Positions 2,357 to 64,000 of a stretch of 64,000 nucleotides of DNA are shown in pieces; within the stretch, counting starts at the first letter, position 1; each line of letters starts with the position of its first letter. The notes beneath the pieces are model-generated. The model made no database searches. It was not told the origin of the DNA and saw only the letters and a program-made list of their open reading frames with translations. The DNA comes from Aureliella helgolandensis. Lineage in GTDB: Bacteria > Planctomycetota > Planctomycetia > Pirellulales > Pirellulaceae. The translations under genes were made by a program, and so were the position numbers. The DNA is taken from contig NZ_CP036298.1 of assembly GCF_007752135.1 (NCBI RefSeq), positions 4,650,001-4,714,000 on the forward strand, given 5' to 3'.

Positions 2357-2735
2357 CAGTGTGTCCGTTCCGACTATGATTTCACTGCGACTTGTGATGC
2401 CGGACAAGAATCGGTGAGCTTATATTTGGAGCCCCCCGATAGACTCTTCTTAACCTAGCTGGTAGCCATTCGCTGATGCCCCTTATTTATTGAAAGTCGC
2501 GCTCGACTTTTCAGCGCCGAAAACAATTGGAACACCAATCGCTACCGTCACAAGCGGGCACACTAATGATTTGCGGAGGCGTGCACAAGCACCTGGAAAA
2601 CGACAACACCTGGAAAACGACAATGTCTCCGGCTTGCCCAGGGGGGATGATCGGCACTTGGTATCACTGCAGGCTCACACAATCCGCGGTTATCAGGTCT
2701 GCTCGGGCAAGAGGTCAGCCTCTCACTCACCTGAG
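2357..2735. repeat. Gap with a 17-bp tandem duplication at 2591-2624
   Basis: No gene is supported here. A 17-base unit (ACCTGGAAAACGACAAC) occurs twice in a row at 2591-2607 and 2608-2624 with one difference. It may be simple slippage. The rest shows nothing clear; it lies between the ends of two leftward genes. Confidence 0.5.
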
Positions 2736-4175: not shown

Positions 4176-4185
4176 GACAGCTAAC

Positions 4186-9164: not shown

Positions 9165-10393
9165 TGCTGCTGGGTTGCATTGGCGACGATTTCACCGGCT
9201 CTTCCGATCTGGCCAATACGTTGGCTAAGGGCGGCATGCGGACGGTTCAATACACCGGTATTCCACACGCTCCGGCCGCGCAAGAAGTTCAGGCCGGTGT
9301 CATTTCACTCAAATCCCGCTCCATTGCTCCGGAGCAGGCGGTGACGCTTTCGCTGCGGGCGTTGGATTGGTTGCGTCAACAGGGATGCCAACAGTTCTTC
9401 TTTAAATATTGCAGCACATTCGACAGCACCCCCCAGGGCAACATCGGTCCAGTCGCGGACGCCCTGGCTGCGGCGTTGGAGACCGACCGAACTATTGTCT
9501 GCCCCGCGTTTCCGGGCGCCGGGCGGACGGTGTTCCAGGGGCACCTTTTTGTCCATGACCGACTACTAAGCGAAAGCGGCATGCAAAACCATCCGCTGAC
9601 GCCAATGACCGATCCGGATATCCGCCGCTGGATGGCGGCGCAATCCGCGCGTCCCGTCGGGCATATCGCTGCGGAAACGGTTTTTGCCGGCGCTGGCGCC
9701 ATCCGCGCCGCCCTCCACGACGCACCGGCCGGCCATCAGGTTGTCGATGCCCTTCGCGACGAAGACCTAGTGGCCATTGGGCGGGCCGCAAGGGACTTGC
9801 CATTGATCACCGGCGGATCCGGGATCGCGTTGGGCCTACCGGAAAACTTTGGCTGTACATCGGGCGACGTTCCCTGGAACGGACAAGCAGGGCAGGCTGT
9901 GGCTATGTCGGGATCTTGTTCGCGTGCTACGCGAGAACAGGTGGCGCAGCATGCAGCCCGGCATCCAGCCCGCGAAATAACGGCGGACGCAGTGATCTCC
10001 GGCCAATTAGCCCTGGGCGAAGTGGCCAACTGGCTAATGCAACAGGAAGGTGTACCGCTGCTCTACAGCTCGGCCGATCCAGACGTGGTACGGGACATTC
10101 AGACGCGTCTGGGGAGCCAAACGGCATCAGCCGCATTAGAAAACTTCTTTGCAGAAACGGCTCGCGCCGTCGTCGGCATGGGGGCTACGCGAATCATCAC
10201 CGCCGGGGGCGAAACCTCAGGCGCGGTGGTCGAGCGTCTCGCTCTGTCACAACTGGCCATCGGCCCCGAAATTGATCCGGGTGTGCCTGCCCTCCGCGCG
10301 CATCCGAATCTGGTGCTGGCGCTCAAATCCGGCAATTTCGGAGCAGCGGACTTTTTCGAAAAAGCTGCAAATGTTTTGGAGGGCAAGTCATGA
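9164..10393 (+). CDS. otnK: 3-oxo-tetronate kinase (DUF1537 family)
   Basis: About 409 residues, beginning at the ATG at 9164 inside the TGATG overlap with ltnD (a GTG three bases earlier is also in frame). The N-terminal DUF1537 substrate domain begins GCIGDDFTGSSDLANTLA and contains KYCSTFDSTPQGNIGPV; the C-terminal nucleotide-binding domain contains ITAGGETSGAVVERL and a glycine-rich stretch. The four-carbon acid sugar kinase family was biochemically assigned to ATP-dependent phosphorylation of 3-oxo-tetronate at O4. The gene is directly coupled to ltnD and otnC. Typical length; nothing is missing. Confidence 0.92.
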   Translation: MLLGCIGDDFTGSSDLANTLAKGGMRTVQYTGIPHAPAAQEVQAGVISLKSRSIAPEQAVTLSLRALDWLRQQGCQQFFFKYCSTFDSTPQGNIGPVADALAAALETDRTIVCPAFPGAGRTVFQGHLFVHDRLLSESGMQNHPLTPMTDPDIRRWMAAQSARPVGHIAAETVFAGAGAIRAALHDAPAGHQVVDALRDEDLVAIGRAARDLPLITGGSGIALGLPENFGCTSGDVPWNGQAGQAVAMSGSCSRATREQVAQHAARHPAREITADAVISGQLALGEVANWLMQQEGVPLLYSSADPDVVRDIQTRLGSQTASAALENFFAETARAVVGMGATRIITAGGETSGAVVERLALSQLAIGPEIDPGVPALRAHPNLVLALKSGNFGAADFFEKAANVLEGKS

Positions 10394-11037
10394 GCGACAC
10401 CACCCTCCGCGAACAGATCTGCCTCCTGGCCCAATCGCTGTTTGACCGTGGATTTACCCATGGTAGCACGGGCAATATTTCAGCCCGCTGCGACGACGGC
10501 GGATTGCTGGTCTCGCCGACCGGCACTAGTTTCGGGCGGCTGGATCCTGCGCGGCTAAGCCGGATTGACGCTAACGGCATTCATGTTGGAGGTGACAAGC
10601 CCACTAACGAAATGCCGCTTCATTCGGCGTTCTACGACACGCGTTCCACCGCCGGAGCGGTCGTGCATCTACATTCCTGTCACTCTGTGGCCCTATCGAT
10701 GCTGTCCGATGTAGATCCGGAGAATTTTCTGCCCCCGGCCACACCCTACGCCATCATGAAATTGGGGAAGGTAAAGCTCTTGCCATTTTTTCTACCTGGC
10801 GATCCCGCCATGGGTGCAGCAGTCCGTGGACTGGCCGGAAAACGCACCGCTGTCATGCTAGCCAATCACGGGCCGGTTGTCGCCGGTAAGGATCCGGAAG
10901 CAGCGTGCAATGCCATCGAAGAGCTCGAGGAAACCGCAAAACTGGCCTTGATGCTGCACGGTTTGCCTGCCCGTATGTTGGACGCCGCACAGGTACATTC
11001 GGTTGTAACCCGTTTTAACGTGGAGTGGGAGGCATGA
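10390..11037 (+). CDS. otnC: 3-oxo-tetronate 4-phosphate decarboxylase (class II aldolase family)
   Basis: A 215-residue class II aldolase/adducin-family protein starting with an ATGA overlap on the kinase gene. Visible motifs are GSTGNISARCDDGG, the metal ligands in HLHSCHSVAL, and LANHGPVVAG with the third His. Family members in this context decarboxylate 3-oxo-tetronate 4-phosphate to dihydroxyacetone phosphate and CO2, which feeds glycolysis. Its end overlaps the start of otnI by four bases, so all four enzymes should be made from one mRNA with coupled translation. Confidence 0.9.
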   Translation: MSDTTLREQICLLAQSLFDRGFTHGSTGNISARCDDGGLLVSPTGTSFGRLDPARLSRIDANGIHVGGDKPTNEMPLHSAFYDTRSTAGAVVHLHSCHSVALSMLSDVDPENFLPPATPYAIMKLGKVKLLPFFLPGDPAMGAAVRGLAGKRTAVMLANHGPVVAGKDPEAACNAIEELEETAKLALMLHGLPARMLDAAQVHSVVTRFNVEWEA

Positions 11038-11798
11038 CCCGTTTTTCTGCAAATCTTGGGTTCTTATGGACAGATCGCCCTTTGCCCGACGCCATCCGCG
11101 CCGCCAAGACAGCCGGTTTTGACGCTGTCGAATGCCACTGGCCCTATGACACCCCAGCCAGCGAGGTAAAACTGGCGCTGGCGCAAACCGGACTTTCCAT
11201 GCTGGGTCTGAACACGGTGCGGGGCGATGTGGCTGCAGGCGAAATGGGACTCAGCGCTCTGCCCGGCCGTCGAGACGACGCATTGTCTGCCATTGTGCAG
11301 GCGGTGTCCTATGCCGACGCAATTGGTGCCCAGGCGGTGCATGTCATGGCTGGGAAATGCGACGGCGTCGAGGCCGAGGCGACGTTCATCGAAAATCTGT
11401 CGGCCGCGTGCGAGATCGCAAGACGCAGTGGCTTGACCATTTTGATCGAACCCTTAAACGCCTTCGACGCACCGGGGTATTTTCTGGGAAACACCCAGCA
11501 GGCGAGCACTTTGATTCGCCAGATTGACGCGTCGAACCTCAAATTGATGTTTGACTGCTATCATGTTGGACGCACCGAAGTTGACGTAGCTGCCACGCTC
11601 CAAAAAATGCTCCCGATTATCGGGCATATTCAGTTTGCCGCCGTTCCGGATCGCGGGGCGCCCGATCACGGCGACGTGGATTTCCGCAGGATCTTCTCCC
11701 TAATCACCGAGCTCGGCTGGGAGCACCCCCTGGGCGCCGAATACAGGCCCGCGGGCGACACCGAGTCCTCGCTCGGCTGGATGGCAAAACTTCGCTGA
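11034..11798 (+). CDS. otnI: 2-oxo-tetronate isomerase (hydroxypyruvate isomerase-like)
   Basis: About 254 residues from the ATG at 11034, which overlaps the otnC stop (ATGA) and has GGGAGG just upstream; a GTG at 11025 is also in frame. It is a TIM-barrel sugar isomerase of the AP-endonuclease-2 superfamily, with metal/substrate residues in ILIEPLNAFDAPGYFL, LKLMFDCYHV, IGHIQFAAVPDRGAPDHGDVDF and LGAEYRPAG. OtnI converts 2-oxo-tetronate to 3-oxo-tetronate, linking the dehydrogenase to the kinase. Last gene of the operon; no clear terminator hairpin follows. Confidence 0.9.
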   Translation: MTRFSANLGFLWTDRPLPDAIRAAKTAGFDAVECHWPYDTPASEVKLALAQTGLSMLGLNTVRGDVAAGEMGLSALPGRRDDALSAIVQAVSYADAIGAQAVHVMAGKCDGVEAEATFIENLSAACEIARRSGLTILIEPLNAFDAPGYFLGNTQQASTLIRQIDASNLKLMFDCYHVGRTEVDVAATLQKMLPIIGHIQFAAVPDRGAPDHGDVDFRRIFSLITELGWEHPLGAEYRPAGDTESSLGWMAKLR

Positions 11799-12743
11799 TT
11801 GGCACCAAATTAAACCATTGGACGCCCATTCCTACCCAGAATTATCAGACGTCCTTGTTTCCTCTCGCCTGCACTCTTGCACCCCCCCCGCGGATGGAGA
11901 GTCGACTCCAAGCAAGCCATCCGGCGACCGAGCGCCAGCTGCCTCCGAGCCAGTTGGACTGACCTCTTCAAGCTCCCACGCGCAGCCATGATCCTGTTGT
12001 GATTCGCTGGTTCTTGCCGTGAGGGTAGGGTAGGGAAGGGGGGAGCAGTTTTGAAGTGGTGGAAGGGAGCCAGGAGCAAGGTAACTTGAGCCCCGTGCAT
12101 GACGATGTTGCCAACGATGTAGGAATTGAAATTGTTAAGAGCAGATGTTGCGAGGCTAGAAACCATCCTTCAAGCTACCACGTTCAACGGGGCACTTCCG
12201 CAGTGACACTACTCGGGGCTTTTGTAGTCCAGGTATTGGTACAGGCGCTGACCGGGATTCTAATAATGGTTCCCCGACAGGTTCGAGCGATTACTTACTG
12301 CTGTGCCAGCGACTACGAAGACGGCAGCTTTCACCCGGCAACTCCTCCACTTTCACGACTACAATCTATAGTCGCGTTGCGCGAATTGTTAAATTTCGGC
12401 ACCGAGGGCTTAGCTAACCAGATCGGTCCGGACGGAAAAGTTGAGCGAGCGTGGTGCGTTTACAGCCTTGTTAGGAGCACAGGCATTTGTACCCTTTCGG
12501 TCATTGCACCGGTTGCCGAACAATTTTGTGCAGTTTCCCCGTCGTAAGAATTCCCGTCGTAAGAAAGCTGGAACCACCCAGCAGGGCGATCCATCTCCCG
12601 ATTTCCCAAGTGGCTTGCAGTAGGTATAACGGATCCAAGTGCGCGAAAAAATGCCTTCATTTTTGCGTGACACTCGAGGCTCGTGCGGCACTTCTTTTAT
12701 ATGGGAAGAAAATATTCTTAATTCATTCGGTAGCTGATTCTCG
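11799..12743. other. 945-base gap between the threonate operon and the FG-GAP kinase
   Basis: Two frames over 100 codons exist (11810-12166 minus, 12056-12547 plus), but they overlap, lack recognisable motifs and have no good ribosome binding sites. The right end (12685-12740) is AT-rich (TTTTATATGGGAAGAAAATATTC) and probably holds the kinase promoter. Nothing else was recognised. Confidence 0.4.
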
Positions 12744-15700
12744 ATGACGAATTCCCCCGCAGATCCTCCCGGTCATGCCACCACATGTGCTTTGCCCCTT
12801 GATGCGGTTACTGCAGAAATACTGCGGATCCTAGATCAACATATGGAGGATCTTCAAGCGGGAAGAGCGGCGACGCGCGCGGAATTGGTTGCGCGTCATC
12901 CTCATCTGGCTTCGCAGCTCGACGCCTGCCTAGCAGGCTTGGAGTTTATCCATGGAAGCGGCGCACCGCTTCCGGGAAATGACCAGCGGTTGGGGGACTT
13001 CCAAATCATCCGTGAGGTTGGGCGTGGCGGAATGGGCGCCGTGTATCAGGCGGAACAGATTTCGCTTCGTAGAATTGTCGCGTTAAAGATTATGCGATTC
13101 GGAAGCGTTTCCGACCCGGAAGCGATCGAGCGATTCCAGCGGGAAGCGGAAACGGTTGCCAACTTTCACCACACAAATATTGTTCCAATCTTCGCGGTTG
13201 GTGTCGACCATGGTGTCAATTACTACGCGATGCAGTTCATCGAGGGGCAGAGTTTAGCCCAAGTCTTGCAGGAGCGCCAGCAGTCAATCGGTGCAAATGA
13301 AGTCGCTGAATGGGGGTTGCAGGCCAGCGAAGCGCTCAGCCATGCCCATGCCCGTGGAGTCGTTCATCGAGATGTAAAACCGTCTAATTTGCTATTGGAT
13401 GCGGAGAGTCGGATTTGGTTGACCGACTTCGGCTTGGCTCGCAAATTGGACAATGTCACGCTGAGCATTGCTGGGGCCATCATCGGAACGCCAAGGTATA
13501 TGAGTCCGGAGCAGGCGGCTGCAGCGATCAAACGAGTCGACTATCGCAGTGATATCTTCAGCCTAGGGGCGACCCTCTATGAATTGCTAACGGGCGTCCC
13601 TGCGTTTCGCGGCGATACTCCCATAGAGGTAATCCAGAACATTCTGACCGTAGAGCCGGAGCCTGTTCGGCAATTAAGTTCGGCCATAGATCGCGATCTC
13701 GAAACCATCGTGATGAAGTGCTTAGCCAAAGAGCCTCACGAGCGATACGATTCGGCCAGTGCTCTCTCCGCCGATTTGCGAGCGTTTATCGATGGTCGCC
13801 CCATCCAAGCCCGTCGCGCAAATGTACTGGAAAGATCCGTTCGTTGGTTGCGACGGCAGCAAAAAAGCGTCAAGCTGTCGGTGGCGGTCGCCGCCGTGAC
13901 CGTCCTAGCGACCTTTGCCAGTATCGCTGGATGGCTGGCCTACGATGCATCACGCCAGGGTACGCTTCAATTCAGCGCAGTCACGCCACCACTGTTGGTC
14001 GAGATATTGGACCAGGCTAACCAACCGCTCCGTATCGAGACCGCGCCGATGCAAAATCCCGCGAAATTGCCGGCTGGGGACTACCGAATTCGCGTTTCGA
14101 CCGAAGGCGAATTGAGCGAATCTTACGATGTCGCGCTCGCCCCAGGACAGGACCTGAAGTTTACGCTCGATCCGCACGATCAACTGCTTTGGCGAGAGCA
14201 TCCAATCGAGCGCAGCTTCGATATTGCCCCCTTCGAAAATAGCCACGCAATCATTGCCTGGACTAAAACTGGACTCGATATTTGGAAGGGATTTCCGAGG
14301 CAGACTCTATCTATTTCGCTGGAACCGGAGAGCCTTCCACGCCCGGCCGAGGCACCGGGGCTCTCCTGGGTCTGGAATGCCTTCGGATCCACTTACGCGG
14401 GCTACGGTCCCTTCGACCTTCGCCCCTGGGTAGCACAGAAAGATGTCGACGTAGATGGCGATGGTCAGCTCGATTTAATTTTTGCAGCTCGTCATCAGGC
14501 ATGGCTGGCGGCCGTCTCGGTCAGTACGGGGCAAGTTCTATGGCTGGCAGCACGCGGGCGAGACGTAACCTCAATAGTTCCCCCGGTTGGCAGCCCCCCG
14601 TATCCGCCGGTCATCAGCACCGTCATGAATGATCCACTCATGGATCACGATTGTGATGGGGATGGTGTTCCAGACCTCATCGTGATGTTAGCTGAAACGG
14701 AGTCAAGTTCAGACTTGAACTTTGGCCGTCCAGAAGTGAGGAACTGGATCGAAGCGATCTCGAGTGCCACAGGGCAAACAATTTGGCGCTTTGACCTTCC
14801 TGCGGAGTGTCTAACCATGGACGCTAACGAGATGCCCCCCCGCGATCTGCGTTGGTATGTAGGGCTTGAAAGCGGCTACTCCACAGGCGGTACCGGAAGC
14901 GTGCTGATTGGTCGTCATCGAGTCCGATTTGGTGGTTGGAAATTTGAACGTCGAGGTTGGCACGGCTATCGTCCGGCTGGATTTGCGGCGCTCACCATCG
15001 GGTCAATGCCGCGAGTGGGGATCGTCGCCGGAACAACCTTCTTCAGCCTCGATCCTATGACGGGTGTAGAGGCTCACGATCCGATTGACCTGGAAGTGCG
15101 CCCGGGTCGAGCGTGTCAGTGGGGCGACCTCGACGGTGATGGTAACTCGGACATGGTGATGCTTGAGGCCATCTCCACCCCACCTCCAACTCCAACCGCC
15201 AGTATTCGCTTGGTGGCTTGGTCGCCTTCCAAGCGTAAACAACTTTGGACTTTGCCTCTCGACGCGGAGTGGCCGCGGATGCCTGCCGGTTCGGTTGAAC
15301 CACCGAACTGGCCGTTAGTCTGCGATCTCGACGGTGACGGCAAGTGTGAGGTGATCGCACCGGATGGGCGCTCACCCGTAGCGACAGGCAATGGCGCAGG
15401 TCTTTCTCAGATTCCCTGGGGAACACTACGCGTCTTCGACGGAGCTACGGGCCAAACACGCTGGACCCAACGTCTCGTCAACATGGACTGTCAAATCGAT
15501 CATTTCATTGACGGACCGGACATCGATCAAGATGGCTGCCGAGACCTGTTCGTGGCAACCCTGATCGGTGACGAATTTCGCGTTTACGTAGACGCATTCT
15601 CCGGCCGGTCCGGTAATCAACTGTGGACGACTAGTACTCCGCAGAAATTCGAAAACCATTTCAGTGATGAGCTCCACTTGATGCCGCTCAAGTGGTGGAA

Positions 15701-18167
15701 CGCCGGCAATGATGGCTGGCCACAATTGCTAGTACAGGTCGTAGCGGCGCAGCAGGGGAAACGGCCAAATATCGTCCTGGGGGTTGCGGCGCAAGATGGT
15801 CATGTCCTGCGGGTCGGCCACGACATAACCTCCCTGCAAGCGGCAGATATGGACGGTGACGGAGTGGAGGACCTGCTAGTTTACAACTCCAACGTGTCGC
15901 AGTCCTTGACCAATGGCGGATTCCTCCATTGCCTGCGCGGTGTGCGGCTCGAACCTTGGGCAGTCCTAGGAGACCGGGGTGAACCACTAAGTGATTGCAA
16001 TGGGGACGGAGTTCGTGATTTGATCTCGGGCTGGCCCAACGCTGCGGTGGAGGCTACCAGTGGCAGTAGTGGCAAGCGACTTTGGCGTACTGAGATCAAT
16101 AGCGATTGGCGAGAATTCCAAGTTCGATCGGCTGCTGCTAAGTCGGGCGCACCAGGCGACCTAGACGGCGACGGAATTTGCGACTTGCTGGGCTGGACCT
16201 ATGGCTCCCATTACCAAGAAAAAGATCGGCCCTTCTTCGCCCTTTCCGGGAAAACCGGCAAGCGTTTATGGACGGCAAATGAAATAGCGGTGCAAACTGT
16301 GCATAAGGTACTGACCGCTGAAGCTCACGATCTTGACGGAGATGGTCAACTGGAAGTGCTGTTCGTCGCGTCCCTTGACTATGGGTACCACCTCCGATCT
16401 AGTATTTCTACGCAGGACTCGCGGCTCTGGATGTTTGCATGCTCTGGACAAACGGGAAAGCTTCGTTGGGCGATCCCGCTAAGTTCTGCTTACGATGGAA
16501 CTCAAGGCACAGTTTTACAAGTGAATCTTGACGGCCCGCCACTCTCGCCAACGGTAGCGGACCTCGACGGCGACGGATTGCTCGACTTCTGCATTCCCGT
16601 TGTCATGCCCGACGGGCTTGGTTTAAAGACGTCCGCACGTCGCGGAACAGACGGTGGTGAAATATGGTCGCGTCCCTATCCGACAGTTGCTAGTAGCCAA
16701 GTGTCGCTGTCCGATTGGATCCCACCAACGGTTTGCGATCTCGACGGCGATGGAGACATGGAGGTGGTTGCTGTTGAAGCTGACAACGGCAACGCAACAG
16801 AAACGTTGACGGGATCACACCTGCACGTCATCGCCCTAGCTGGGGAAAATGGGAGCGAACTCTGGAATTCACCCTTCAAGATAGCTGTCGACAGTCTACG
16901 TTCTCATTCACACAGTTTCGGGCAAGCTGCTCGAGCACATGTGTTGCGAGCCAACGACAATTGTCATCAGATTGCGGTGATGACACCTGGAGCACCAAGC
17001 GGCGTTTCAGTATTTGATGCCGCTGGGGTGCGGCAAGACTGGGGACCGCTGGCAGGTCGCCAGATCTCCGGACTGTGGGTGTGCGATGCTGATCGAGATG
17101 GACGCGATGATATTGTTATCCTAGAGCAAAACATGCTTGGTGTGGTGACTGCAGCCGCCCCCGAGCGACCGAGATGGACCTACTCGCTTCCGTCGATTGG
17201 TCCGCATCGCGTGCTGGGAATCAAGCCAGCCGACGGTATCGAACCGGCGGTGATCGCCATAGGCTGTGATGCCTCAGACAACAGTGTATTAGGCATAAGC
17301 CTAGCAACCGGCGAACGCGTATGGAGTGTTGCGGGAGTCATCGCGCAGTTTGACGGTGGTGCCTACTTGGCACCAAGACGCCTTGATTGGCTCAATGAAT
17401 TCACCAAGAGCTCGGCAATTGACCGTCCGTACATCTACTGCAGCTACGATTCGGTGTCGCGCGTTCGCAGCGGTGAGGCACCTAGCATGGCAAATCGTCT
17501 CGAGCCGACGCGAGATCTTGGCCGCCAGGTTGCCGCTGGTAATATCGGATCCCCAAGAATCCGACAGCACGTGGATGAACGATGGGCGAGAGACCTTCCT
17601 TGGGTGTCAACGACAATAACCTATCGCGAACTGTTTTGGAACATTGCTTGGTTGATGTCGCTCTCGGCGTTGCTGGTTGTCATACCTCTCTACTTTCTCT
17701 ACCACATCGTTCGCCGGCAGTTTAGTTTGCACCTTCTATTGGGTTTGCCTGTTGTGGCTAGCCTATTCTTGATGGCAATACTCATGAAAATCCCCATCGC
17801 TGAAGATGTCCATACACTCGGCGAGCGTTTCGGGATGGCCGCAATTTACGCACCGCTGGTGGCGTCGCTCGGACTTGTTGTTTCCTGGGGGTTTGGTCGG
17901 CGATGGCGGAGGTTGGCTGCGTGGCTTCTGACTACAATCGTAGCGAGCCTCGCTTCCGCACTGCTTTTGATTTGGGCCGATGCCGTGATCTATAATCCTA
18001 TGCTTCCCGAGGAACGCTATCGCTTCCAGGGTTGGCCTTTGGTCTGGCTGATTGGGACGTACGCAACTGCATGGCTAATGTTGTTAACGTTGCTATTCCT
18101 GCGAGTTTGGCAATGGCTGAGGAAGCGGTTCGGTTCCAGCAGGGGAACCAACGCCTTCGTACCGTGA
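12744..18167 (+). CDS. Giant membrane Ser/Thr kinase with FG-GAP/VCBS repeat sensor
   Basis: 1,807 residues. The cytoplasmic N-terminus has a Hanks kinase domain at about 83-350: GRGGMGAVYQAE, the Lys in VALKIMRF, HRDVKPSN, DFGLA, GTPRYMSPEQA. A single membrane segment (about 378-400, LSVAVAAVTVLATFASIAGWL) leads to an extracytoplasmic region of about 1,200 residues. At least twelve calcium-loop motifs of FG-GAP type can be counted there (for example DVDGDGQLDLIF, DCDGDGVPDLIV, DLDGDGNSDMVM, DLDGDGKCEVIA, DADRDGRDDIVI), alternating with PQQ-like TGQ.LW segments, suggesting beta-propellers. The C-terminus has a further four or five membrane helices. This appears to be a surface sensor that signals through phosphorylation. 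An ECF sigma factor gene starts 31 bases downstream and is a likely target. Confidence 0.93.
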   Translation: MTNSPADPPGHATTCALPLDAVTAEILRILDQHMEDLQAGRAATRAELVARHPHLASQLDACLAGLEFIHGSGAPLPGNDQRLGDFQIIREVGRGGMGAVYQAEQISLRRIVALKIMRFGSVSDPEAIERFQREAETVANFHHTNIVPIFAVGVDHGVNYYAMQFIEGQSLAQVLQERQQSIGANEVAEWGLQASEALSHAHARGVVHRDVKPSNLLLDAESRIWLTDFGLARKLDNVTLSIAGAIIGTPRYMSPEQAAAAIKRVDYRSDIFSLGATLYELLTGVPAFRGDTPIEVIQNILTVEPEPVRQLSSAIDRDLETIVMKCLAKEPHERYDSASALSADLRAFIDGRPIQARRANVLERSVRWLRRQQKSVKLSVAVAAVTVLATFASIAGWLAYDASRQGTLQFSAVTPPLLVEILDQANQPLRIETAPMQNPAKLPAGDYRIRVSTEGELSESYDVALAPGQDLKFTLDPHDQLLWREHPIERSFDIAPFENSHAIIAWTKTGLDIWKGFPRQTLSISLEPESLPRPAEAPGLSWVWNAFGSTYAGYGPFDLRPWVAQKDVDVDGDGQLDLIFAARHQAWLAAVSVSTGQVLWLAARGRDVTSIVPPVGSPPYPPVISTVMNDPLMDHDCDGDGVPDLIVMLAETESSSDLNFGRPEVRNWIEAISSATGQTIWRFDLPAECLTMDANEMPPRDLRWYVGLESGYSTGGTGSVLIGRHRVRFGGWKFERRGWHGYRPAGFAALTIGSMPRVGIVAGTTFFSLDPMTGVEAHDPIDLEVRPGRACQWGDLDGDGNSDMVMLEAISTPPPTPTASIRLVAWSPSKRKQLWTLPLDAEWPRMPAGSVEPPNWPLVCDLDGDGKCEVIAPDGRSPVATGNGAGLSQIPWGTLRVFDGATGQTRWTQRLVNMDCQIDHFIDGPDIDQDGCRDLFVATLIGDEFRVYVDAFSGRSGNQLWTTSTPQKFENHFSDELHLMPLKWWNAGNDGWPQLLVQVVAAQQGKRPNIVLGVAAQDGHVLRVGHDITSLQAADMDGDGVEDLLVYNSNVSQSLTNGGFLHCLRGVRLEPWAVLGDRGEPLSDCNGDGVRDLISGWPNAAVEATSGSSGKRLWRTEINSDWREFQVRSAAAKSGAPGDLDGDGICDLLGWTYGSHYQEKDRPFFALSGKTGKRLWTANEIAVQTVHKVLTAEAHDLDGDGQLEVLFVASLDYGYHLRSSISTQDSRLWMFACSGQTGKLRWAIPLSSAYDGTQGTVLQVNLDGPPLSPTVADLDGDGLLDFCIPVVMPDGLGLKTSARRGTDGGEIWSRPYPTVASSQVSLSDWIPPTVCDLDGDGDMEVVAVEADNGNATETLTGSHLHVIALAGENGSELWNSPFKIAVDSLRSHSHSFGQAARAHVLRANDNCHQIAVMTPGAPSGVSVFDAAGVRQDWGPLAGRQISGLWVCDADRDGRDDIVILEQNMLGVVTAAAPERPRWTYSLPSIGPHRVLGIKPADGIEPAVIAIGCDASDNSVLGISLATGERVWSVAGVIAQFDGGAYLAPRRLDWLNEFTKSSAIDRPYIYCSYDSVSRVRSGEAPSMANRLEPTRDLGRQVAAGNIGSPRIRQHVDERWARDLPWVSTTITYRELFWNIAWLMSLSALLVVIPLYFLYHIVRRQFSLHLLLGLPVVASLFLMAILMKIPIAEDVHTLGERFGMAAIYAPLVASLGLVVSWGFGRRWRRLAAWLLTTIVASLASALLLIWADAVIYNPMLPEERYRFQGWPLVWLIGTYATAWLMLLTLLFLRVWQWLRKRFGSSRGTNAFVP

Positions 18168-53689: not shown

Positions 53690-56600
53690 ATGCAAATGTC
53701 CTGCCGACCCCAATCCGCATGGGGTGTGATGGTAGTCATATCGGTCTTGAGCACATCTTGTCAAAAGCACGAAGGACAGCCGCCCAACGCCCAAAAAATC
53801 ACAGTTTCCGACGACTCCGAACTGGGCAGCGACATTACAGTTGATCGTGTCGATAATCTCGGATCACCGGATATCATTACGCGACTCGCGGCCGTCGACT
53901 CACTTGCTGCACAAGGCACTAATTGCTTAACACTCGTCACGCAGTTGCTCGATGATAAAGCAACCGACGACCTCAAGCTGCAAAGTTGCTGTGAAGTTGC
54001 GGGAAAGCTCGGACCTAGCGCCTCCGAACTGACGCGCAAGTTAGAGTCTTTGCTGAATGCTAAATCGGAGAATGTTCGGTCCTCTGCGCAGTGGGCATTG
54101 CGTCAGGTCGCCACCGTTCGGGCCGCTCGTGCAAGCGACGAAGAGATCGACGCCTTAATTGGTGAGCTAGCCTATCCACCAGAAGGTACAAATGCTGTGA
54201 AGACTCTTGTGGATCTCGGCAAGCCTGCAACCCCTCACGTGTCGGATCTGCTGATTATTGGCGCGTTCGACCAGCGCGCTTATCCCCCAAGTCTTCGGGC
54301 TCTTCCTATTGTTGGCGCGACTGGTAGACAATCGAGAGAATATTCAACTGCACTGGGCTGGATGTTAAGGAACCCAAAGCTCCAGTACGGAAGCCATTCC
54401 GGCAGAGCGGAGGTTATAGAGACAATCGCTCGGCTTTCACGACACGACGAACTTCAAGATAATTTGGTTCCGTTGCTCATTGAAGCCCTTCGCTACCACG
54501 AGATCAATATGAACGTGCCAGCTGTAGAAGCGCTGGTCACAATTGGCCAACCCTCAGTGAACCCGATTGCTGAGGCGATAGAGAACGAAATGAGCAGAGA
54601 TCGCCTGAGCTTCCGACTGATCAAACCGGCCACAGAAATACTAGCTCGTATCGGGCCTGATGCGAAAAGCGCTTTGCCACAGTTGATCAGGGTGTTAGAG
54701 CATCCAACTCTGTACGACTACGCTGCAGTGGCCATTTGCGCAATCGATCCCGTCGACGGAATTACCGCTGTAGAGCCAGTTCTGCTCCGACATCTGCGCG
54801 ATGCCGAACAAGGCGCAAGCGATGCTGCACAAGTCCTGTCCCACGTTTGTCGAGGCACGCCAGCTCTCGCGTCAGCTCTCCTTAGAGCTGCGTTCGCCAA
54901 CCCAGAAGACACGCAGTCCACTCGGGCGTTAGTCCGGGCTGGCGGCGTTGTGTTAGGCGCCCTCAGGTCAGTCTCAGGCGACTCTATTCGCCACCTTCGG
55001 GCAAAACTAAGTGATGACGATCCTTGGATTCGTGGCCGAGCCGCGATTCTCCTAAGCGCCTGCGGCGAGAAAGCGCGACCAGCCGTTCCGGAACTCACGG
55101 CGATGCTACGCACTGATTGTAAAGAGGATGCAAATTGGGAGTCTCTTTGGTACGACAAGTTCTATCCGAACGGCGGCTACGCTTTTCCGCCGAAGGGTCC
55201 GAGTCCTTTCGGCTACCATCAGGACCAGGCGATGCTACGCCACATTTCACCGATTCGCGCCAAGTACGATATTCAACTGTGGACGTATAAGCCGCCGAAT
55301 CTACGTCGCTTAGTCGCAGAGTCGCTCGGTCGCCTTGGATCGTTCGCACAGCCTGAATTGATTAGTATCTTGCGTTCTACAGAAGACGAGGTCACCCGGC
55401 AATTCGTGTTGCATGCCTTTGAGAATTTCGAGAGACTCGACGACACGTTGCTTACTGTACTTCGGAAGTATCTGGACGACCCAACTCATGAACTGCAGGT
55501 AGCTAACATCCTTTCGCAAGAAAAGAACGAAGAGCTCCGACAGGACGTACTCGGCACCCTTCGCGTAGCGTTGGTAGACCCGAGAAAGGCGTTGGGCGCT
55601 GCAGTTATCATCTCCCGAGACTTTCCAGAGCACTCACACGAGGCTGTTGAACCACTACTGATAAGCTTGGCTTCTAACGAAGTCGATGCATCGGAGCATG
55701 CGGCCGCAAAGAAAGTTTTGGACCAGCTTGTTCAGGTAGGGGATGTTGAGCTGTTAGCGGTTCTATTCCGGACCCTCAGTGACTTGAGCCGGGCCTCAGC
55801 TCATGAAACTGCCGGGAGACTACTGGTTAAGGTGGGGGAAGCTTCGGTGCCGCGCCTTGTTGAAGGGGTCGTGTCTAATGAAATGGACCGGCAACTGACG
55901 TTGTGGTGTCTTGCCCAATTCGAAGTTCCAGCCGAACACTGGCCACAGCTGATCTCGACAGCCGTAGAAGTGTTGCAAAGCACAGACGAAAGTGAGAAGC
56001 GATTGGTTCGAGCGATGTTTCGGCAGAGCGGAAGGGAAGCTCGCGCTTACATTGGTGCGCTTCTACCACTTCTGACCGATGAGCGAACAGCGTTGAACGC
56101 GGCGATCTGTATAGGATATTCCGATCCAACAAATGAAGTTTCTGTGGGTGTCTTAGCAGCAATGTGGCGATCTGTTGACAAACACAAGAGATTGAGGGCT
56201 GTCGCTACGGCACAAAGCCTCAAGGGACGCGCGGCGAAAAGGGCATACGAGTCTGCCGTCGCTATTCTCCATGATCACACCGCCGAGGTGGAAATTCGCG
56301 CAAGTGCAGCACTCGTGATGGTTTCGTTGAACACCGACAGCGGAATAGCTTATGTGATGCCGCTTCTCTCGAAGCTTGAGTCGGCGGCGAGTGCTCCCCA
56401 GATTCATTCAACTATTCTGGACCACGCCGATGAGGTCCGGAAAGAAACCTGGGAAGCAGTAGTGCCCTCATTCAAGAATCTGATAGAGGCTGACGACGAA
56501 GAACTTCGTCGTTTCGCATGTACTCTCCTTCTTAGCATTGAACCGCGTATTACCGAAGCGGAAGACTCGCTTGCCAAGTGGCTTGCAGAAGACCCAGAGG

Positions 56601-57340
56601 ACTATTTCGTTGCACGCCAAGTCCGATATGCTCTCATCAAGAGCGCTGCCGACCCGAACATATGGTACGAGCGGTGGCTACAGACTGCGGAGGATGTTGA
56701 TACAGAGGCCGGCTGGGTGCTTGCGGAGGCGGGACCGGGAATCGTGCCGATGCTTTGCGAACTGTTCCAAGACATCGAGCTTTCGGACGAGCGTCGTGAT
56801 CTGTACGGTGACCTGCTGGGGCGATACCGAGGAGGAGCCACTCTAAGCGTGCCTGTATTGTGTTCGGTAGCCAAGCGTACGGACGACCCACTTCGTTGGC
56901 GAGCCATCCATTCACTCGGTCGCCTTGGACCATCCGCGAAAGGCGCGACCGACTTACTGATTACACTACTCTCAGAGAAAGGAGACCGCCTGCAGAAGCA
57001 ACTCGCTGCAGCTGCTTTAGGTCGGATTGGAGAGGGTGCAGTGAAGGCAATTCCAAGTTTGGCCGCCACCGTTCGGGCTGACGATTTAGATCTCCAGTGG
57101 CGAGCCATTCACAGTCTCGGCCAGATTGGCTCAGCGAGTGAAACTGCTCTGACTCAACTCATACATTGCCTGAATGACCCGAACCTTCGCTATTGGTATC
57201 TGGCGGCGATCGCGAAGATCGAAACACGTGACGCAAGTCTCGACGAGGCGGTCAAATTACATTTGTCGGATTCGGATCCTGCGATCCGTCGACTCGCACG
57301 GCAAATACTCACCAAAGAAACTGCGAACGGCCTTCAGTGA
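53690..57340 (+). CDS. 1,216-residue HEAT-repeat protein with lipoprotein-like signal
   Basis: ATG at 53690 with AACAGGAG eight bases upstream. The N-terminus (GVMVVISVLSTSCQKHEGQ) looks like a lipoprotein signal with a Cys, although the lipobox (STSC) is not ideal. The rest is a long solenoid of HEAT-like repeats, for example SPDIITRLAAVDSLAAQG, VNPIAEAIENEM, AKSALPQLIRVLEHPTLYDYAAVAICAID, ARPAVPELTAMLR, LRWRAIHSLGRLGPSAKGATDLLITLL and LQWRAIHSLGQIGSASETALTQLIHCL. Such solenoids serve as protein-binding scaffolds. It is the third gene of the SEFIR/hydrolase unit. No enzyme domain was seen. Confidence 0.82.
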   Translation: MQMSCRPQSAWGVMVVISVLSTSCQKHEGQPPNAQKITVSDDSELGSDITVDRVDNLGSPDIITRLAAVDSLAAQGTNCLTLVTQLLDDKATDDLKLQSCCEVAGKLGPSASELTRKLESLLNAKSENVRSSAQWALRQVATVRAARASDEEIDALIGELAYPPEGTNAVKTLVDLGKPATPHVSDLLIIGAFDQRAYPPSLRALPIVGATGRQSREYSTALGWMLRNPKLQYGSHSGRAEVIETIARLSRHDELQDNLVPLLIEALRYHEINMNVPAVEALVTIGQPSVNPIAEAIENEMSRDRLSFRLIKPATEILARIGPDAKSALPQLIRVLEHPTLYDYAAVAICAIDPVDGITAVEPVLLRHLRDAEQGASDAAQVLSHVCRGTPALASALLRAAFANPEDTQSTRALVRAGGVVLGALRSVSGDSIRHLRAKLSDDDPWIRGRAAILLSACGEKARPAVPELTAMLRTDCKEDANWESLWYDKFYPNGGYAFPPKGPSPFGYHQDQAMLRHISPIRAKYDIQLWTYKPPNLRRLVAESLGRLGSFAQPELISILRSTEDEVTRQFVLHAFENFERLDDTLLTVLRKYLDDPTHELQVANILSQEKNEELRQDVLGTLRVALVDPRKALGAAVIISRDFPEHSHEAVEPLLISLASNEVDASEHAAAKKVLDQLVQVGDVELLAVLFRTLSDLSRASAHETAGRLLVKVGEASVPRLVEGVVSNEMDRQLTLWCLAQFEVPAEHWPQLISTAVEVLQSTDESEKRLVRAMFRQSGREARAYIGALLPLLTDERTALNAAICIGYSDPTNEVSVGVLAAMWRSVDKHKRLRAVATAQSLKGRAAKRAYESAVAILHDHTAEVEIRASAALVMVSLNTDSGIAYVMPLLSKLESAASAPQIHSTILDHADEVRKETWEAVVPSFKNLIEADDEELRRFACTLLLSIEPRITEAEDSLAKWLAEDPEDYFVARQVRYALIKSAADPNIWYERWLQTAEDVDTEAGWVLAEAGPGIVPMLCELFQDIELSDERRDLYGDLLGRYRGGATLSVPVLCSVAKRTDDPLRWRAIHSLGRLGPSAKGATDLLITLLSEKGDRLQKQLAAAALGRIGEGAVKAIPSLAATVRADDLDLQWRAIHSLGQIGSASETALTQLIHCLNDPNLRYWYLAAIAKIETRDASLDEAVKLHLSDSDPAIRRLARQILTKETANGLQ

Positions 57341-58110
57341 TGCAACCACCAGACAACCCATTATCCCCCTCTTTAACATTCGTAGATTACCCACTACGGC
57401 GCAATCGCCCTGCAGTGTAGACACGCTCGCTACCGTCTGAGATCTGAATCTGTATACGTAGATACCAGTGATCCTGCCTGAAGCAAAAGAAAGCGGTCCT
57501 CTGGAAATAACCGTCCGCGAACATTTGCGGTACCGATCCGCGACGCCGTGTGTAAACGGCGGGACCAAGTTCGGCGGCTTGGCTTTTCGCGCAATTGCGA
57601 GCGGTGAAACCGAGAGCTGAATTTGCGCAATCAAATCGACTGTCCTTGCGCAGCAAAGCGATGCCTGACCCGCCTCGTCAACTCCCTGAAAACACACCGA
57701 TGCGAATCGCGTCCCGCTTGAACTTGCTGAAGATGCATCGATTGCTGAAGATGCATCGACTTCTAGCTCGAGGAAACTGTTGTGAAAGGCAGAAGTGCTT
57801 TCCACCGACCGCAGCTAAATCAGACAATTTTGCGGTCAAACTGACATCACCTAGCTTTCAGCGCAGGTCTCCGTTACTGCTCAATGACGAACCGTCATGG
57901 TGCACAATGACGCAAGGTGCTGAGATGACCGAGGTGACGGCGACCGCTGCGGTTTGCCGATTCTGGTAATGCTATCAGCAACAGTCTCGCAATAAGTTGG
58001 CCGTTGCACCTGGGATTAATGATAGAATCCTACGAGGGTGCAAATCATGGAATATGATTGGAAGCACAGGTTACTAAAGTTTAACGCTTGCGAGATTGAA
58101 GGCGCGACAG
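57341..58110. repeat. 770-base gap with an 18-bp tandem duplication at 57724-57759
   Basis: A perfect 18-base direct repeat (TTGCTGAAGATGCATCGA) occurs at 57724-57741 and 57742-57759. Frames on both strands over 100 codons lack motifs. The gap separates the two helical-repeat genes, so the second probably has its own promoter. Confidence 0.5.
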
Positions 58111-60018
58111 ATGTTCATGGCTATTGTTCTGACCGCCGTAATTGTATCTCCGCAGACATCCGGTGAATCGACGATCGACGAACTAATCAGAGCCATTACG
58201 CCTGCGGATCCCGAAGAAGTCGACTCTGGCACCGCTAATCTTGTCACGCAGAGTCGCATCAGCGCATCAAGGCAAAATGCAATCTTTAGATTGGCGTCTA
58301 TGGGCGACAAATCCTCTCCAGCCATTCCAGTTCTCACCCGCCTCGTTGCGGATCCTCTCGAACCGAAACCCTATAGATTGGCCGAGATCGAAGTCCTGCG
58401 TATTCTTGGGCAATTGGCAAGTCTAAGTTTGGATATTCTGCGGCAACTGGGAAACTCGGATGACACTTTAATCAAGGTTGCTGCACAAAGAGCCGCACTA
58501 TTCGTTGACCCCAAGACACAAAATTACCACTCGAAGCAGGCCTTAGATGATGTCTACCGTTCACTGCTACAACTCTCGAAATTTGAAGACGCCACATTGC
58601 TGCGTCATGTCTACGAGTATTGGCAGGAAGGGGACGACAACGTGCGGGGTGTAGCGACACTCGAAGAAGACGACCAAGATCAAAGTAACCCTAACTTTCA
58701 AGTAATTGCGCGAATAGTGTTCGAGAATGAAAACGCAGGTTTGCTAATTGCTGAACTATTTTCAACGCATTGCGGTGTTAAGCTCGGCCAACGTTTGATG
58801 AATCACCCAGTCATAAAAAACTCGGATGATTTTAGACAAATGATCCTAAAACAGGCCTTCGAGAAGAACGCGCCGACAGACGCTGCGAAGATGCCAGCGA
58901 GCGCTGTGATAGGGCTACTGGATTCGAGGGGTCCCTTTTTCGACGGAGAAAGGTCGTCAACCAACCGTCGCATGCTGGGTCTTAGAATGCTTGCAATCAC
59001 TCAAAGCCGGTCGACATATGAGGATTTTCTAAAGGTTGATTCTTTAGATCCTGAGGTCTGGCAGGGCGTATTCGATGCATATGTAACTTACATGAGGTTC
59101 GCCGAGACTGATCCTATGGCAATTGCTTTCGCGGTGTACTTGCGAGAGATTGACAGATGGCCTGATGCGAATGCCAAGGTCGCTTTCCATTGGCTACTAA
59201 AACGGGGAGCTGCTGAGGGAACAAGTCCGGAACTGAGAGCTGAAACACTTAAGACTGTCCTTCATATAGCCAGCAGCACAGGCAGTGGAATTGAGTTGTT
59301 CCTTGCCCCAGATAGCCTCCATGGGGTTCGAAGCCTTCTCTCGCGTTACGAGAGGACTGAAGATGATTTTCAGAAACTTCCGTTGCTGTCGGGGCAACCT
59401 AACCATGTCACCAAGGACATTGCTCTCGATTTTCTACTCCGAACTGCTCCCAACTGTAATTTGCTGATTCAGGGAAGTGTGGACCGAGCTTTGCAATATC
59501 CGCCGTCCGACAACACGCTACTAGATGCAAACCTGAGTCCAGAGGTGTGGCGGCGCATTCGAAATTCTTCAAACTTGCAGGGCCCCATCAGATTATTGAC
59601 TTGGACAGTCGACGATTGGATAGATGAAGGTAGCAGAATGCGTTTTTCCGTATTGCCAGATTCTAGAGGTAATCGACTAATTGTTAAGTTTCATGCTTTT
59701 GACTTCATCGCAGCACTGGAGTGGAATGCTGAAGAATCCGTACTATATCTGGTCCCAATTCATGCCCTCGGTTTATTGAAACTAGTATTTCCCGAAAACA
59801 CCCCAATTCCATTTGAGGTCAGAGGCGATGCCTCGTGGAAATTTAACTTGCTAGAAAACCGTAGATTGGGTGTTCAATTGAAACGCATCGATGCAGATCA
59901 CATCACTGTTACGTTTGAGAGCGGGATCGAATGGTCTCTAGTTGGATCAGCAGCCACAACGTCGCGTGACGCCGAGCATTCTGTCCGGACAGACGATAGA
60001 ACAGAGCGAGCCAAATAG
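58111..60018 (+). CDS. Exported helical-repeat protein, unknown function
   Basis: 635 residues from the ATG at 58111 (GAAGG upstream); a TTG at 58096 is also in frame. A signal peptide (MFMAIVLTAVIVSPQTSGES) is followed by HEAT-like helices (ISASRQNAIFRLASMGDKSSPAIPVLTRLVADP, AEIEVLRILGQLASLSLDILRQLG), a long helical middle part, and a beta-rich C-terminus (MRFSVLPDSRGNRLIVKFHAFDFIAALEW, DHITVTFESGIEWSLV). No known family was recognised. Its organisation (signal plus HEAT) resembles its upstream neighbour, which suggests a shared role at the cell envelope. Confidence 0.7.
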   Translation: MFMAIVLTAVIVSPQTSGESTIDELIRAITPADPEEVDSGTANLVTQSRISASRQNAIFRLASMGDKSSPAIPVLTRLVADPLEPKPYRLAEIEVLRILGQLASLSLDILRQLGNSDDTLIKVAAQRAALFVDPKTQNYHSKQALDDVYRSLLQLSKFEDATLLRHVYEYWQEGDDNVRGVATLEEDDQDQSNPNFQVIARIVFENENAGLLIAELFSTHCGVKLGQRLMNHPVIKNSDDFRQMILKQAFEKNAPTDAAKMPASAVIGLLDSRGPFFDGERSSTNRRMLGLRMLAITQSRSTYEDFLKVDSLDPEVWQGVFDAYVTYMRFAETDPMAIAFAVYLREIDRWPDANAKVAFHWLLKRGAAEGTSPELRAETLKTVLHIASSTGSGIELFLAPDSLHGVRSLLSRYERTEDDFQKLPLLSGQPNHVTKDIALDFLLRTAPNCNLLIQGSVDRALQYPPSDNTLLDANLSPEVWRRIRNSSNLQGPIRLLTWTVDDWIDEGSRMRFSVLPDSRGNRLIVKFHAFDFIAALEWNAEESVLYLVPIHALGLLKLVFPENTPIPFEVRGDASWKFNLLENRRLGVQLKRIDADHITVTFESGIEWSLVGSAATTSRDAEHSVRTDDRTERAK

Positions 60019-61936: not shown

Positions 61937-64000
61937 GTGAGCGATCAAGATACCATCGAAGAACTTCATAGAGTAGACCTCCCTCAATTCGCGCGGCACC
62001 TCGGGCTGACTGTAATCAAAAAGGGGAAAAGTAGCTTTGTAAGCTGTCTTTTCCACAAGGATCAAAAGCCCTCGATGTCGCTGTACACACTTCCCAACGG
62101 CGAGTGGCGTTACAAGTGTTTCTCTTGCGGCGAGAAGGGCGATGTCTTCGACTTGGTTCAGAGACACAACAATGTCGAATTCCGTGAGGCCCTCGAATTG
62201 GTTGCTCAGTTCGCGGGAGTTTCACTACCACGAACTTCAAAAGCAAGTCGGTCTCGTTCAGCAGAGTCGATTGCGCTGAAAGCCTTTACGACAAGTACCG
62301 CGTATGAAAAATCAGGCCTACAGACTTGGGCGAAGCAACGCGGTTACAAAATAGCAACACTAGAGCGGTTCGACGTCCGCTTCACCCGTAATCAAAAGCT
62401 CTCAACTGAATTCAACAAAGATCGAGAGACGTTGGCTTCTCTTGAAGACGCTGGACTTGTCGTTCGCGCTGCAGGCGTTGATGCGCGACAACCAGAGCTG
62501 GACCTGGACATTCCGTTTCGCGATGCAATGTTCGGAGATCGAATTGTCTTTCCTGTGAAGGACATTCGAGGGCAGCCAAGGGGCTTTATCGGTCGAGCAG
62601 TCGCAGAAGATGCTCGGCAGCGATACCTTTTCACGAGGTCGTTCCAGAAGAGCAAGCACTTGTTCGGTGCTGATGTCGTGCGTAAAGCAATTGCGAGTGA
62701 TTCGGACGCTGGCGAAGAGGGCACAATTGAACCGCTTGAATACGTCTATGTGGTTGAAGGGCCAACGGATGTACTCAGGCTTGCAGGTTTCGGACTCCAC
62801 GCGGTCGCTGCGATGGGAAGCGATCTTTCTGAAACACAAGCTGAACTCCTCGGCGAACTTGCTCGCGACGCATTGATGCGAAATCGTTCGCCTGTGATAC
62901 GGGTCTTTTTTGATAGTGACGATGCGGGCGTCGAGGGAACACGCCGAGTTCTCGCACAATTGCTTCGTCAGATCGTAAAGTCGGCAAACTTCATGATTGA
63001 AGTTGTGACCTCACAGGGCGGCGATCATGGCTACGTTGGGGCAGACCCAGACAGTTGGCTAAAAGGCGTTGCTAAGCGGACAGCTATTGAGCGAATAAGG
63101 GAGCATGTGACTGCGGTTGGACAATTTCTTTTGTCCCACAGCATTGGATGCAGATCAAGTGAATTGGAATCAAATTGGAAACGCCTCCCATCTTCCCAGA
63201 AGTTTTCTGCGAGACGGCGCGTCGAACTGTTGTTGAAACGCGATGAGTGGAACGATGTTCTCGACCGACTGGGAGATAGCTTCTTTCGCACTTCGTTTTC
63301 AGTAGACGACAACACAGGTACGCGAGGCACCTGGGAATTTGACCTCGAAAACTTTCTATCACGCCGTGAAGACAGTTCTGGCTCAGCGATTGAAGATGGA
63401 AACATTGTTAGGAGCAGCGAGCAACGCAATTTACTTCATGCGATTCAAATAGCGCATTGTTTTTCTCAACGACGAGAATTCCCAGTCGACGCGAAGAGTT
63501 GGGATCGGTTACTGGTCGGTGGTAACGTCATCGTTCCCTATTTCAGAGAGTTACTCGGAACCTCTAAATGCAAGATCGAACCGCTACTCGCCATGAGTGT
63601 GCCCAAGGCGTCAGGCGGGAGCCGACTGAAAGCGATTCCCTGCCCAGAACAACTTTCGATTCAACAGTATCTTCTCAATGAACTGTTGGGTAGCGATGAA
63701 AGTCGCCTACCACCCAGTTTTAGAGACTGTATCCCTGCCATTCGGTACTCCGGCGGTGGTGTTCACGCGACAGGCCTTCCTTCCGGTGCTTCGACTGCAG
63801 CGACTGCAGCGACTTGCTTTTCCTACCAAGTAGACATGTCGATTGCACATGGAGAGAAGACGCCGGGAAATGAAGGCTTTTTCCGCCCGTACCCGGAATG
63901 TTGGTCGGAATTTGTCGATTACCTATCCAACTCGGTACGCGAAAGCAATCGGGACTGGACTGACGATCGCCGGTACTACGTTGCTCGGCTTGACGTTCGA
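61937..64000 (+). CDS. DnaG-type primase (CHC2 zinc finger + TOPRIM) fused to a reverse-transcriptase-like domain, 3' end outside window
   Basis: 688 codons to the window edge from a GTG at 61937, the only start after an in-frame TAG at 61919. A CHC2 zinc finger is clear: C37-x2-H40 (CLFHKDQKPSMSL) and C61-x2-C64 (YKCFSCGEKGDVFDLV). A TOPRIM fold follows: E274 in VVEGPTDVLRL and D326/D328 in FFDSDDAGVEGTRR. After about residue 540 the sequence takes on the character of group-specific bacterial RTs: KAIPCPEQLSIQQYLLNELL, FRDCIPAIRYSGGGV, FSYQVDMSI, GFFRPYPECWSEFVDYL, and at the edge YYVARLDVR, where RTs have the first catalytic Asp motif (xxDIxxFY). The YADD box would be beyond the edge. It is likely a phage-defence or mobile-element enzyme; its neighbour is an integrase. 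Confidence 0.8.
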   Translation, partial: MSDQDTIEELHRVDLPQFARHLGLTVIKKGKSSFVSCLFHKDQKPSMSLYTLPNGEWRYKCFSCGEKGDVFDLVQRHNNVEFREALELVAQFAGVSLPRTSKASRSRSAESIALKAFTTSTAYEKSGLQTWAKQRGYKIATLERFDVRFTRNQKLSTEFNKDRETLASLEDAGLVVRAAGVDARQPELDLDIPFRDAMFGDRIVFPVKDIRGQPRGFIGRAVAEDARQRYLFTRSFQKSKHLFGADVVRKAIASDSDAGEEGTIEPLEYVYVVEGPTDVLRLAGFGLHAVAAMGSDLSETQAELLGELARDALMRNRSPVIRVFFDSDDAGVEGTRRVLAQLLRQIVKSANFMIEVVTSQGGDHGYVGADPDSWLKGVAKRTAIERIREHVTAVGQFLLSHSIGCRSSELESNWKRLPSSQKFSARRRVELLLKRDEWNDVLDRLGDSFFRTSFSVDDNTGTRGTWEFDLENFLSRREDSSGSAIEDGNIVRSSEQRNLLHAIQIAHCFSQRREFPVDAKSWDRLLVGGNVIVPYFRELLGTSKCKIEPLLAMSVPKASGGSRLKAIPCPEQLSIQQYLLNELLGSDESRLPPSFRDCIPAIRYSGGGVHATGLPSGASTAATAATCFSYQVDMSIAHGEKTPGNEGFFRPYPECWSEFVDYLSNSVRESNRDWTDDRRYYVARLDVR

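Follow-up and report, generated by a model that had tools for sequence, protein, structure and literature searches.

The last frame of the window, the 64,000-nucleotide stretch analysed here (C1:4650001-4714000 of an 8.44-Mb single-contig genome), raises the question of whether a DnaG-type primase and a reverse transcriptase (RT) are truly joined in one protein, and what a primase would do there. The initial annotation had read this frame on the forward strand from a GTG start to the window edge, where it was still open, and all of this was as described (Table 1). Beyond the edge, the gene continues as a single open frame of 2526 residues (C1:4711937-4719517; L009:3937-11517), with a primase core at residues 1 to about 400, an RT at about 500-910, a long and mostly helical region, and a nitrilase-superfamily-like part at about 1940-2526, the last lying outside the view of the initial annotation. 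The fusion of a DnaG-type primase core, an RT, and a nitrilase-like domain in one chain is real. An assembly or annotation artefact, in which unrelated genes were joined into one frame, has a practically negligible probability: the length is unusual, but the frame is unbroken in a one-contig genome, and 44 of 53 loci carry one frame of 2388-2636 aa, so that the relatives already refute this explanation.

Table 1. Coordinates of the features discussed, in window positions unless a locus is named.
Feature	Position	Strand	Basis or remark
UG29, N-terminal 688 residues	61937..64000	+	Open frame; gene reaches genome C1:4719517
CHC2 zinc ribbon, residues 24-100 (C37, H40, C61, C64)	62006..62236	+	Pfam PF01807 Zn_ribbon_DnaG, E=3e-13
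DnaG RNA-polymerase N-terminal subdomain, residues 126-246	62312..62674	+	Pfam PF08275 DNAG_N, E=3.5e-10
TOPRIM, residues 271-347 (E274, D278, D326, D328)	62747..62977	+	Pfam PF13155 Toprim_2, E=2.2e-6
DPD motif D370-D372, just past the TOPRIM match	63044-63052	+	Conservation
RT region from its beginning (roughly residue 500) to residue 688, with motif A (RLD686)	63434..64000	+	RVT_1, DRT1 profile match, conservation
Tyrosine-recombinase-like gene, 349 aa	60318..61367	-	Phage_int_SAM_1, E=9.9e-5; 569 bases from the UG29 start
RNase_T-type exonuclease genes beside UG29 in relatives	L053:16133-17062; L049; L050; L051; L052; L055; L057; L074

Domain anatomy of the chain

The Pfam matches to Zn_ribbon_DnaG, DNAG_N, Toprim_2, and RVT_1 all exceeded the curated cut-offs, RVT_1 lying at residues 768-848 (E=1.1e-8). 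When 44 full-length UG29 proteins were aligned, C37, H40, C61, and C64 were found in every row, as were E274, D278, D326, D328, and D370, and position 372 held Asp in 38 and Asn in 6 of them. The initial annotation had placed the first four of these residues, E274, D326, and D328 correctly. We take the TOPRIM positions to equal the metal-binding residues of DnaG. With the zinc ribbon, DNAG_N, and TOPRIM present and the catalytic residues kept, this half appears to retain the DnaG mechanism. In NCBIfam, the dnaG model TIGR01391 matched residues 13-401 with 147.2 bits, below its equivalog cut-off of 283.6, and the remaining five matches were weak RT models. AlphaFold2 models were obtained for the two halves of L044, the nearest relative, with mean pLDDT values of 77.8 and 73.9. 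Among the best 50 of 99 Foldseek matches at E <=0.001, the N-terminal half gave DnaG structures (2au3, E=3.3e-15; 3b39_B, E=2.5e-11, TM by target 0.75), followed by group II, AbiA, AbiK, Abi-P2, DRT4, DRT6, DRT9, and UG15 RTs.

The DnaG core stands upstream of the RT in UG29, presumably a contrast in domain order with retron-Eco2. This retron, according to the accessible part of PMC12405507, carries a TOPRIM effector domain fused to its RT, so that RT and TOPRIM share one chain as in UG29, and it lends some plausibility to a DnaG/TOPRIM half that is no longer a primase and serves as a sensor or a TOPRIM nuclease-type effector. We consider this quite unlikely, because UG29 has the fuller DnaG core: it retains the zinc ribbon, DNAG_N, and a DP motif (370-371), none of which a bare TOPRIM nuclease would need, and the modelled fold matches DnaG catalytic cores. 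No retron or other described ncRNA was matched by Rfam at the gathering score within L009:1900-14000.

For the RT, the initial annotation had expected a YADD/YVDD box 100-150 residues downstream, and a continuation lacking palm motifs would have spoken against it. The palm motifs were present. Motif B (GMPQGP, 769-774) and YARYVDD (810-816) both lie beyond the window end, the YVDD at 813-816 standing 125 residues past residue 688; GFFRPYPECW proved to be a conserved element ahead of motif A, and RLD at 684-686 is motif A itself. D686, Y813, D815, and D816 were found in 44 of 44 proteins, giving an active-looking palm of the kind that a class 3 UG/Abi RT would have. Together, the Pfam domains, the match to the RT_UG29 model described below, and these motifs bear out the claim that one chain holds a primase core of the DnaG/TOPRIM type together with an RT of the UG/DRT type.

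Towards the C-terminus, E2062, K2137, E2146, and C2170, which we take to be the nitrilase catalytic set, form a nitrilase-type E-K-E-C that was found in all 44 UG29 proteins. The C-terminal half of the L044 model gave nothing at E <=0.001 in Foldseek; an amidase (probability 1.00, E 0.028) and a cyanide dihydratase (0.95, E 0.11), with weak E-values, were the sole high-probability matches among the best 50 listed, and both belong to the nitrilase superfamily. HHalign to four DRT1 relatives aligned the nitrilase Glu region with 76% probability over 57 columns, and the Pfam nitrilase model matched neither the window's protein nor any of the 15 members tried. We assign a nitrilase-like domain because the two high-probability, weak-E fold matches and the invariant E-K-E-C residues point the same way. 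Class 3 UG/Abi RTs are described in the accessible part of PMC13275509 as an RT plus a nitrilase or phosphohydrolase, and on these residues and model matches we count the putative C-terminal domain as such a nitrilase.

Membership, origin, and distribution of UG29

By profile match, the window's protein is a member of the catalogued UG29 family and not a new kind. The PADLOC model RT_UG29 (PDLC03767) gave E=0 and 1407 bits, aligning residues 8-2517 with model positions 7-2278 of 2280, and because it covers nearly the whole length, the chain already falls inside the catalogued UG/DRT families. The next UG model, compared on the whole protein, scored 45.9 bits, L044 reached 1445 bits against RT_UG29, and a separate PADLOC model, RTasDnaG-like, matched the primase half. 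In the tests made, no difference between the window's protein and UG29 was seen, and its identity to the 43 other full-length members was 23-35%. Our literature search found no study of, or experiment on, any UG29 member, nor a test of defence by one. The UG/DRT classification of Mestre et al. 2022 reportedly tested four further groups for defence, UG29 not being among them.

A tblastn search of plasmids found two relatives, on Polaromonas naphthalenivorans pPNAP05 (L040) and a Sphingomonas aerolata plasmid (L041), and a profile scan of genome contigs with the plasmid-relative alignment gave 50 loci, named in their records as Planctomycetaceae, Acidobacteriota, Deltaproteobacteria, Pedosphaera, Lachnospiraceae/Oscillospiraceae, and many Pseudomonadota. 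With L009, L040, and L041, these made up the 53 loci. The 44-row alignment excludes nine of them: four whose frame runs off the stretch (L047, L059, L070, L088), two with broken frames (L064, L073), one ending at 938 aa (L078), the split L090, and L092 with its large internal deletion; L041 was kept although its frame leaves the end of the circular record at 2458 aa. The 50 loci were fetched via two peptide patterns at residues 627-634 and 649-656, so that conservation there is partly built in; the catalytic residues fall outside both.

When 392 genomes of the phylum were searched with the UG29 model, among the matches listed only that of the source genome covered the whole model, the others spanning about 340-470 model positions in frames of 466-1057 aa, which we judged to be ordinary DnaG. 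With the RT-to-end part as the query, one of 119 family genomes was positive, the source genome itself, with one UG29. The gene is sporadic. The source genome also has ten RVT_1 matches, the UG29 place being among them (E=1.6e-9); two equal-score pairs at distant places (loci L001-L004) are probably multi-copy retroelements. In viral contigs, the RT-to-end part of the window's protein found no relative, and the alignment query gave six short RT matches (61-114 query residues, E 3e-6 to 1e-4) that were judged to be unrelated RTs. The phage search returned one match, a 2.4-kb contig of 'Cyanobacteria phage AS-1' (L042, DQ115810.1) with a UG29 RT fragment that, by eye, abuts a transposase-like frame; we rejected it as a phage UG29, the record probably being contaminated with bacterial DNA.

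To place the primase half, two trees were analysed. The first (45 rows) set the primase halves of 22 UG29 proteins against 23 DnaG cores, and a 100/100 branch separated them, with UG29 on one side; its bootstrap was not fully settled (0.985), and because only the given strand was read and the zinc motif was required, it drew on 22 of 44 UG29 and on DnaG from 5 of the 17 host loci and 18 of the 29 planctomycete loci. The second, read from both strands, held 20 UG29 and 43 DnaG sequences (63 rows; 43 of 46 DnaG loci, the motif filter having removed L126, L127, and L025), among them DnaG from 15 of the 17 searched genomes that carry UG29, and again put UG29 on one side of one branch, in a FastTree run that warns of long branches. 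This one-sided branch relative to host DnaG argues that the primase was not recruited repeatedly from hosts, and in these sequence comparisons a single old primase-RT fusion is shown. Host DnaG has the same core domains, fold, and active-site residues as UG29; it differs in standing across the 100/100 branch, in the TIGR01391 cut-off that the window's protein does not reach, and in having its C-terminal part where the RT region of UG29 stands. In Pseudoalteromonas L090, UG29 is encoded by two frames that share 4 bases (L090:8492-15891), with primase and RT in 8492-12040 and the nitrilase-motif part in 12037-15891; as the split lies between the RT and the nitrilase part, primase and RT stay together. 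A further frame of 931 aa (L092:4357-7152) joins the primase half of UG29 to its extreme C-terminus and lacks the RT and nitrilase active sites, through either an internal deletion or an assembly effect.

The initial annotation had proposed a mobile defence gene beside an integrase. The neighbouring recombinase-like gene matched in Pfam only N-terminal SAM-like domains, one of them above the cut-off, and copies or pieces 94-98% identical to it were found at C1:1106232-1107277, with pieces at 3215282-3215803 and 3221663-3221857; decayed pieces lie at C1:1896698-1897200. It is a member of a repeat family in the source genome, whose near-identical copies are shortened or interrupted. Neighbouring genes of relatives were scanned in 43 loci, where 192 frames lay no more than 3.5 kb away; taking up to two on each side, picked mechanically, gave 145, of which 3 were left out (142) and the 13 longest were dropped (129). 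Phage_integrase was found in only 5 and RNase_T exonuclease in 7 of these 129 proteins, and on this ground, together with the repeat nature of the gene, we rejected the integrase as a component of UG29. What stands of the mobility claim is weak: no copy was detected in the 118 other family genomes, two members are on plasmids, and in pPNAP05 an annotated tyrosine recombinase lies 1.5 kb upstream. The same facts, with the recombinase-like gene next to ours, would suit a role in replication or spread of a mobile element, served by primase, RT, and integrase, in place of defence. We regard this as very unlikely: the integrase is rare in the neighbourhoods, near-identical copies or pieces of it occur in this genome apart from UG29, replication would hardly call for a nitrilase effector, and the six viral-contig matches span only short RT stretches. 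The GC content, 0.516 in the UG29 gene vs 0.540 in the window, gave no strong sign of foreign origin.

PADLOC models matched among the 129 neighbour proteins included HerA, Mads, Jet, and others, and the evidence for defence from the neighbourhoods, scanned without controls, is mixed. In eight loci, alphaproteobacterial by name, UG29 is directly adjoined by a gene for a 3'-5' exonuclease of the RNase_T type, about 300 aa long, and in the S. aerolata plasmid one (L043:208-1098) adjoins the UG29 of L041 across the record origin. Pfam RNase_T was confirmed in three of the eight and in the plasmid gene. In total, 9 of 11 alphaproteobacterial loci have it, L061 and L064 showing none in that cluster, and among the frames examined next to the window's UG29 no exonuclease was seen. 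It is a possible accessory gene of UG29. Upstream of UG29, the window also encodes a 1216-aa HEAT-repeat protein (53690-57340) and a protein of 640 aa that no Pfam family matched (58096-60018). When the flanks were compared across 15 genomes of the genus to look for insertion borders, the HEAT protein found weak repeat-level matches only, and the downstream helicase had a 79% identical copy in G654 and two others at 42% and 39%. On the P. naphthalenivorans plasmid (L040), a NACHT-domain protein (1-4488) and a DNA/RNA non-specific endonuclease (6907-7851) are encoded near UG29.

Comparison with DRT1 and a candidate priming residue

Next, UG29 was compared by HHalign with four planctomycete DRT1 proteins (L100-L103). 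The RT aligned over 180 columns at 98% probability, with the FRPYxECW stretch of UG29 placed against LYRQYYTDYQ of DRT1, and on this profile evidence the UG29 RT is related to DRT1. The chain is not a full-length DRT1, as the PADLOC model Drt1a was matched at positions 163-330 of 1176 only (E=5.4e-10). With DRT1 (PDB 9yfd), UG29 shares the RT profile, the C-terminal nitrilase-like Glu region, and a serine at a similar place after the RT. Both have a helical middle, to judge from the L044 model for UG29 and the accessible part of PMC13275509 for DRT1; the two middles do not align, and residues 930-1930 of UG29 showed no DRT1 homology in HHalign and were assigned to no family. At 1229 aa, DRT1 has about half the length of UG29, and as its RT lies near the N-terminus, it has no primase half.

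According to the accessible part of PMC13275509, DRT1 and DRT5, both of class 3, carry out protein-primed DNA synthesis; the DRT1 primer is S402, located 77 residues beyond D325, its second catalytic Asp; defence by DRT1 needs both the RT and the nitrilase residues; and conservation of S402 is stated not to extend to other class 3 DRTs. In UG29, position 874, 58 residues after D816, is a serine in 39 of the 44 proteins and a tyrosine in the other 5, in settings such as SGP, SVP, SA, and similar. The DRT1 relatives have SG[PV] at +67, +67, +68, and +76, and a forced HHalign alignment pairs S874 with this serine, with little per-column confidence; in a HMMER alignment, residues 401-403 of DRT1 9yfd fall beside the SGP of UG29, two to three columns off. 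Position 856 carries Ser or Thr in 42 of 44 proteins, whereas the window's protein has Asn there. These alignments make S874 a candidate priming residue, which we regard as a lead.

The same residue bears on the possibility that UG29 is RNA-primed, the DnaG core making a short RNA primer on single-stranded DNA, which the RT of the same chain would extend into DNA with no protein priming. The primase core is complete with its residues invariant, the fusion is old and stable, and the RT follows directly after the primase, which remains with it in the split L090; all of this agrees with RNA priming. Had it been so, no conserved priming residue would have been expected, and this expectation failed: a hydroxyl is found at 874 in 44 of 44 proteins, and its Ser/Tyr exchange fits protein priming. 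In addition, the class 3 relatives DRT1 and DRT5 are protein-primed in the accessible part of PMC13275509. RNA priming is, in our estimation, rather unlikely.

Proposed mechanism and its significance

The reading we prefer, to which we give a probability of about 60%, is that UG29 would abort infection in the manner of DRT1, with a primase built into the chain and working on single-stranded DNA. Its anti-phage role, protein priming, and the manner in which the primase takes part are what we infer. The RT would start DNA on a hydroxyl of its own chain, with S874 as the candidate, and the product would be protein-anchored DNA. This anchored DNA may keep the nitrilase in a poised oligomer, from which phage infection would free it, so that cell metabolism is harmed and the infection aborted. 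Protein-primed DNA, oligomer, nitrilase effector, and abortive infection are all carried over from DRT1. Known DnaG uses a single-stranded DNA template and makes an oligoribonucleotide product. The DnaG core of UG29 would most likely act on single-stranded DNA too, either the RT's own product, to which it may add a second strand of RNA, or phage replication DNA as a trigger.

The second strand as RNA from the DnaG core is proposed by analogy with DRT7. Like UG29, DRT7/UG10 has RT and primase in one chain (accessible parts of PMC13213688 and PMC8934634), and protein-primed duplex-like DNA is reported for DRT7 in a preprint cited by PMC13213688, in the part available. The primase types differ, an AEP primase-polymerase in DRT7/UG10 vs DnaG/TOPRIM in UG29; the UG10_large model gave only 45.9 bits on the window's protein; and, unlike in UG29, no nitrilase is reported for DRT7/UG10 in the accessible parts of PMC13213688 and PMC8934634. 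A bolder version of our preferred reading would make UG29 a two-strand writer, in which the RT lays down single-stranded DNA anchored at S874 and the DnaG core writes RNA on that DNA, the resulting RNA-DNA hybrid adduct restraining a nitrilase suicide effector until phage helicases or nucleases strip it. We offer this tentatively, as a fairly improbable scheme. In the literature searched, as far as the sources were accessible, no DRT with such a hybrid-adduct product and control logic was found, the nearest being the duplex-like DNA of DRT7.

UG29 proteins retain a primase, an RT, and a nitrilase-type site within a chain of about 2500 residues. The family is the DnaG/TOPRIM version of the RT-primase fusion seen in DRT7, and it is related to DRT1. 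The strongest question that UG29 poses is the role of a DnaG primase inside a nitrilase-bearing RT. Through UG29, the reason why primases join defence RTs becomes testable by point mutants, and so does the idea that a nitrilase effector may be under the control of nucleic acid made by the chain to which it belongs, for which S874 is a precise target.
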